A stretch of 64,000 nt of DNA from Methanolobus psychrophilus R15 (GTDB lineage Archaea > Halobacteriota > Methanosarcinia > Methanosarcinales > Methanosarcinaceae), in NCBI GenBank assembly GCA_000306725.1, contig CP003083.1, positions 2,344,042-2,408,041 of the forward strand, read 5' to 3'. Below are positions 5,750 to 7,245 of the stretch, in pieces. Numbering within the stretch: the stretch's first letter is position 1; each line of letters starts with the position of its first letter. A program made the position numbers and the translations under genes. The notes under the pieces were generated by a model. The model saw only the letters and a list, made by a program, of their open reading frames with translations. It was not told the DNA's origin and ran no database searches.

Positions 5750-5860
5750 TTGTCATTTATTCATATTTTATCTAACAATAAAGTTTAAATATGTTACTGC
5801 TATGCTTGTCTGATAACATTAATGTATACAATAATAACATCAAATAATATGAAATTAAAT

Positions 5861-5869
5861 ATTTATATG
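5861..5869 (+). promoter_or_regulatory. TATA-like element upstream of the S-layer-family gene
   Basis: ATTTATATG lies about 100 bases before the start codon at 5969, giving a predicted leader of about 75-80 bases with a strong ribosome site at its end. Placement is inferred from archaeal promoter geometry. Confidence 0.4.
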
Positions 5870-5968
5870 TTTTGTGGATCAAACTCCTCTTCACTGATCG
5901 TTTATCAGATTCCGGATGGTGCGTGCGTTTGTACAATGTTTATGGCTTTTCCCAAATGGAGGTATATA

Positions 5969-7245
5969 ATGCAAGAAAAAATGAAGGTATTAATAATAGC
6001 CCTATTCCTGCTGGTCTTTGCCCTGCCGGTAAATGCGGCAGATGTGACCTATGAGATAAGGAGTACCGTATACGACAACAGCAACCCTTCCATTGCTGCC
6101 GGAGATTTCTACTGGGAGGCCAATACATTCCCAGCATTCTGGTACCAGATAGGAGGAGGCCGCTCCAGCGAGGTCCTCTATATCCATAACACCTGGAACT
6201 CTTCAGCCAGGCTCCAGCTTGGAGACACCATTCCTGAAGGGAATCTCTATTATGTCAGCAAGCCCGCTATCCGCAGGTCAAAGATAGGCGGTTCGGACTC
6301 TGCAGGTAGTTTTATGGTCAACGGGGTTGACCTTGAAAGATATTACCTGATGGGACTTTTTGGAGCACAACATGTTGTCATGCCCGCAGACCCTGCCAGT
6401 CCTTCAGCAGGATGCAAGCCGAATGAGATCGCAAGGATACTCATAGACAGCGATGACAAGAAGACAATGACCACAGGCTAGGAATGGAAATTCTCAGGCG
6501 GCTGGTCCTTTGTGGTACAGCAGATAGATGTGAAAGGGAACAAGGTCTGGCTGGAGCTGAAAAAGGACGGGGAAGTTGTTGATACCGATGTCCTTTCAAC
6601 AGATGCCACCCTCACAAAGCAGGAAAGGACCTATCTCTACAAGGACAGTGATGACATCCCTGTATTCTACTGTTACGCTGCTTCCGCATTCAGGGGAGCA
6701 ACTACCGACCTTGTTGTGTTCGAGTATGTCTTCCTGAGAGGAGATATCATTGAGATCAATACTGATGATGCCTATGGGGCTTTCAAGGTACAGGGCTTCA
6801 CGGTCCCCGCAGTCCTGGACAATGTTACCTATACAGGCAACATCATGAACACCGGCGACGATGCCCTTGTAATGGCCAGCAGCAAGAGCATTTCCCTTAA
6901 GTCAGAACAGGGGACATCGATCTTCACGGCGGGATCAGTATCAAGACCGAGGACACAACTGCACCTGACCTGAAGTTCACCCTGAGAAAGAAGGTTACCA
7001 TCAAGGTGGACGACTGCCCGGAATGTCCGGAGTGCCCACAGGAAAATACAGGCTCCGTAAACAATGAGGTATCAAAACCCTCTGTTGCAGAGGTGCAGGC
7101 TGTTCCTGATACCACTGAAGCGGGATTCGCAGTAAAACGACCGGAAGCAGACACACAGGCTGCAGCAAGCTCTGTCGCAGCTCCGGGATTTGGGGTATTG
7201 CTCGATTTGCTGGGAACAATTATCGCAGCAAAGATAAAAAGATAA
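5969..7245 (+). pseudogene. S-layer-family surface protein interrupted by in-frame TAG and a 1-base frameshift
   Basis: The start at 5969 has a good ribosome site (GGAGGT five bases upstream) and is followed by a signal peptide (MKVLIIALFLLVFALPVNA). The product has one Methanosarcinales S-layer domain (PF07752-like: VNGVDLERYYLMGLFG, QQIDVKGNKVWLELKKDG, DTDVLSTD, FEYVFLRG). TAG at 6479-6481 interrupts the domain after 170 codons, where relatives carry an ordinary residue before EWKFSGGW. The frame then runs to a G4 run at 6910-6913, where one missing base shifts it. The other frame continues with TGDIDLHGGISIKTED, a CPECPECP motif, a low-complexity linker and a C-terminus (APGFGVLLDLLG...KIKR) resembling a PGF-CTERM archaeosortase signal. 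It is either a decaying gene, or pyrrolysine read-through plus a sequencing error. Confidence 0.75.

Follow-up and report, generated by a model that had tools for sequence, protein, structure and literature searches.

A probable decaying pseudogene of the S-layer protein family, with an in-frame TAG, in the pyrrolysine-using methanogen Methanolobus psychrophilus R15

An S-layer family gene interrupted by an in-frame TAG in Methanolobus psychrophilus R15 is very probably (roughly 0.93 by our estimate) a decaying pseudogene of a single-domain surface protein. It occupies positions 5969 to 7245, on the plus strand, of the 64,000-nucleotide stretch of DNA that was analysed, referred to here as the window. 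The PF07752 domain is matched on either side of the TAG, a frameshift follows further downstream, and the 3′ part of the gene, the only part shared with the sister species, gives a dN/dS of 0.91, against 0.09–0.14 for neighbouring genes. The gene thus combines disabling lesions with lost constraint. The original prediction had posed pyrrolysine read-through and pseudogene as the two possibilities. The pseudogene is favoured because the relatives carry glutamate at the TAG site, the downstream frameshift breaks the gene whatever the TAG does, the sister gene is mostly lost, and what remains of it is near-neutral; functional read-through is not supported.

Architecture of the interrupted gene

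The reading frame opens with an ATG at 5969, just 3′ of a GGAGG motif, and runs for 170 codons before reaching the TAG at 6479–6481 (plus strand). This first open piece (5969–6478, plus strand) encodes a signal-peptide-like N-terminus and the first half of the S-layer domain, and matches PF07752 profile positions 8–117 (E = 3e-11, 43.2 bits). The second open piece (6482–6973, plus strand) continues in the same frame as far as a TGA at 6971–6973 and matches profile positions 120–226 (E = 3e-23, 82.7 bits). The profile order is continuous across the TAG, and both scores exceed the curated cut-off of 30, which makes both pieces members of the domain family. The suggestions that the TAG falls inside an S-layer domain and that the same frame goes on with family sequence are therefore borne out. 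Furthermore, coding-like codon usage persists for 163 codons past the TAG. A 464-kb genome sample of 20 stretches was surveyed for TAG-ended open reading frames, and this was the sole one of 32 such frames whose extension rose above the coding-score cut-off, indicating that the coding-like continuation is beyond chance. Long open extensions also follow two other TAG-ended frames in the sample, namely mtmB and a peroxiredoxin; for the latter, a family match past the TAG was not found.

Past about position 6911, the second open piece leaves the family frame. Alignment to the closest relative (G016, the sister species used for the comparisons of lesions and dN/dS), in which the spacing is that of the intact family, reveals a net gain of two bases at about 6911–6916 (plus strand), the exact site being ambiguous within this stretch. 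The C-terminal piece (6922–7245, plus strand), identified by homologue alignment, is read one base back and ends with a TAA at 7243–7245. It encodes a hydrophobic end following a PGF motif, a possible sorting or anchor signal; the PGF-CTERM model gives only sub-threshold matches to the intact relatives, and a role of this C-terminus in anchoring is putative. The original prediction had noted a later frameshift, which is indeed present, but the zero-frame TSIFTAGSV that follows EQG is already out of frame, the family-like DLHGGISIKTEDT being carried by the other frame. Because of this frameshift and the TGA at 6971, reading through the TAG would not give a full-length family protein.

The pyrrolysine system and the use of TAG

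The genome is a single contig of 3,072,769 bases and encodes pylS, with pylB, pylC, and pylD directly after it. A search with a 68-base Methanosarcina tRNAPyl sequence located a 91% match about 24 kb from the pylS-pylBCD genes. With pylT, pylS, and pylBCD all matched, the objection that the genome might lack pyl genes, which would have told against the original prediction, falls away. This agrees with published work on M. psychrophilus R15, which describes an expressed tRNAPyl gene distant from the synthetase gene as well as six re-annotated methyltransferase genes (PMC5378194). Genes for mtmB with an in-frame TAG are also present. Since the pyl system is in place, read-through of TAG is biochemically possible and the TAG in the S-layer gene need not be a stop.

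The TAG-containing mtmB sequences (L079, L080, L082, and L083, at about 1647000–1651000 and 1680000–1682500 of the genome contig, G000:C1) are broken, partly duplicated tandem pieces with shifting frames, which may reflect either misassembly of near-identical copies or a real duplication. Possible misassembly in the same genome sequence lends some colour to the idea that the S-layer gene is intact and merely misread through sequencing or assembly errors. Two independent errors would be needed, however, of which one would have to be a net two-base gain instead of a single homopolymer miscall, and such errors would explain neither why constraint is relaxed throughout the gene nor why the sister copy is degraded. 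We regard this explanation as highly improbable.

Archaea are known that read every TAG as pyrrolysine. Genome-wide recoding of this kind was considered for M. psychrophilus and rejected for the 464-kb sample, in which many ordinary genes end in TAG: it terminates 32 of the 304 genes called, and a more stringent selection gave 16 of 168, these being mechanical calls of which some will be wrong.

One alternative holds that the gene still encodes a surface protein that works, with the TAG read as pyrrolysine and the frameshift explained either by a sequencing error or by programmed −1 shifting. The pyl genes, the tRNAPyl match, and the TAG-containing mtmB speak for it, as does the continuation of the PF07752 domain past the TAG. 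In addition, the RNA just 3′ of the TAG is more stably folded than 199 of 200 shuffled sequences. Yet the segment that follows the TAG is equalled or outdone in folding by 15 of 118 segments taken along the S-layer gene, and a downstream RNA element is not required for pyrrolysine insertion according to a review (PMC8211752). On these two grounds a downstream RNA signal for pyrrolysine was rejected; the aligned regions of intact homologues fold less stably. The alternative is further weakened by the frameshift, with no canonical slippery heptamer found between positions 6600 and 6925, by the glutamate that all homologues carry where none has TAG, and by the near-neutral remnant and deleted copy in the sister species. 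It is thus very unlikely that such a protein is at work, and equally so that a pyrrolysine-containing surface protein is still made and useful, whether without its C-terminal segment or by way of a programmed frameshift.

The TAG site and constraint among relatives

At the TAG site, each of the 15 homologues aligned, all from the genus, encodes glutamate (GAA or GAG), and TAG occurs in the source genome only. The original prediction had offered Lys, Glu, or Gln as the residue in relatives, and the second of these guesses was right; a change from GAG to TAG takes a single base. Several of the aligned homologues are flanked by the same btuF-like and FmdE-like genes, which identifies them as positional counterparts of the interrupted gene. 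Neither a conserved TAG nor a frame kept open around it by selection was found among the relatives: the homologues have glutamate, and the sister species, which may once have shared the TAG, has lost the site.

Some homologues have peculiarities of their own. One (L034, in G015:C4, at about 1400–1560) seems to shift frame near its N-terminus, possibly an independent loss of the same gene. In two others (L032 and L033, from G007 and G001), a single open frame of 761–778 codons contains two copies of the domain, which suggests tandem duplication and fusion.

The window copy has departed from columns that are otherwise invariant in the alignment, and to about the same degree on both sides of the TAG (9 of 47 columns before it and 8 of 50 after), whereas the other homologues depart from at most 4 of 42 before the site and 3 of 45 after. 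Its identity to the homologue in G011 is 57%, while the adjacent btuF shares 88% identity with its G011 counterpart, and the window copy is about equidistant (55–58%) from the nine homologues compared. Such a long branch would fit decay, but it could also point to an ancient paralogue or to a copy acquired by transfer.

These departures bear on whether a truncated product of 170 residues, cut off by the TAG, remains in use. The first open piece does keep its start codon, its GGAGG motif, and its signal-peptide-like N-terminus; the product would nevertheless break off midway through the PF07752 domain, it has diverged at the 9 of 47 conserved columns just mentioned, and the sister species has lost the corresponding part. 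There is little reason to credit it, and we give it hardly any weight.

The locus in the sister species

The neighbours of the S-layer locus are conserved in G016 at 92–93% DNA identity. Between them, the segment matching about 5799–6842 of the window is missing from G016, so that the 5′ three quarters of the S-layer gene are deleted, and the 400 bases left carry a further one-base deletion, and hence a frameshift, of their own. Comparison of the window copy with this remnant over 128 codons, all of them past the TAG, gives a dN/dS of 0.91 (bootstrap 0.47–2.20), and differences are spread evenly over the codon positions (14, 14, and 12 at the first, second, and third). For three neighbouring genes the same comparison gives ratios of 0.14, 0.09, and 0.10, with differences mostly at third positions. 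The remnant common to both species thus evolves at about the neutral ratio. As part of this divergence accrued on the G016 branch, dN/dS alone does not tell when the loss occurred in the lineage of the window copy.

A proposed history of the gene

Taken together, the evidence favours an ordinary pseudogene. In a lineage that no longer needed this S-layer protein, the glutamate codon would have become TAG, and two bases would have been gained further on; this order of lesions, and the lack of function in the source genome, are what we infer. Intact S-layer proteins, one part of a refuting condition set for the original prediction, are present: the genome encodes other PF07752 proteins without internal stops. 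Today any product of the interrupted gene would terminate at the TAG. Should the gene be transcribed, chance reading of the TAG by tRNAPyl would extend the product to the out-of-frame TGA at 6971, without the hydrophobic C-terminus, and low-level pyrrolysine insertion of this sort is possible, but nothing seen in the sequence points to a functional role.

Beyond annotation, the consequence of this result is slight. It does show that, where an archaeon carries pyl genes, an in-frame TAG should be called pyrrolysine only if there is conservation, and that comparison with a sister species can settle most cases of this type.

Comparison with known systems

The frames of the methylamine methyltransferase genes run through a TAG, and the pyrrolysine inserted there is catalytic. 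Like the S-layer pseudogene, MtmB, MtbB, and MttB are encoded with an in-frame TAG alongside pylS, pylBCD, and tRNAPyl in the genome; they differ from it in that its TAG site is glutamate in relatives and its frame breaks again. That pyrrolysine in a protein outside these methyltransferases would be new, as had been claimed, is too strong, as some transposases and the tRNAHis guanylyltransferase Thg1 are listed among pyrrolysine-containing proteins (PMC8211752). By that listing, they are like the S-layer pseudogene in having a TAG outside the methyltransferases, but the pseudogene is also frameshifted. The pseudogene also compares closely with the single-domain S-layer proteins of the Methanosarcinales (PF07752/TIGR01567) from the same genus, which have about 430 residues and share its domain. 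These relatives lie in the same neighbourhood in several species and have the same hydrophobic PGF-type C-terminus, which in the window copy is in a shifted frame. The relatives compared are open through the glutamate codon, where the window copy has a TAG and, further on, a frameshift.
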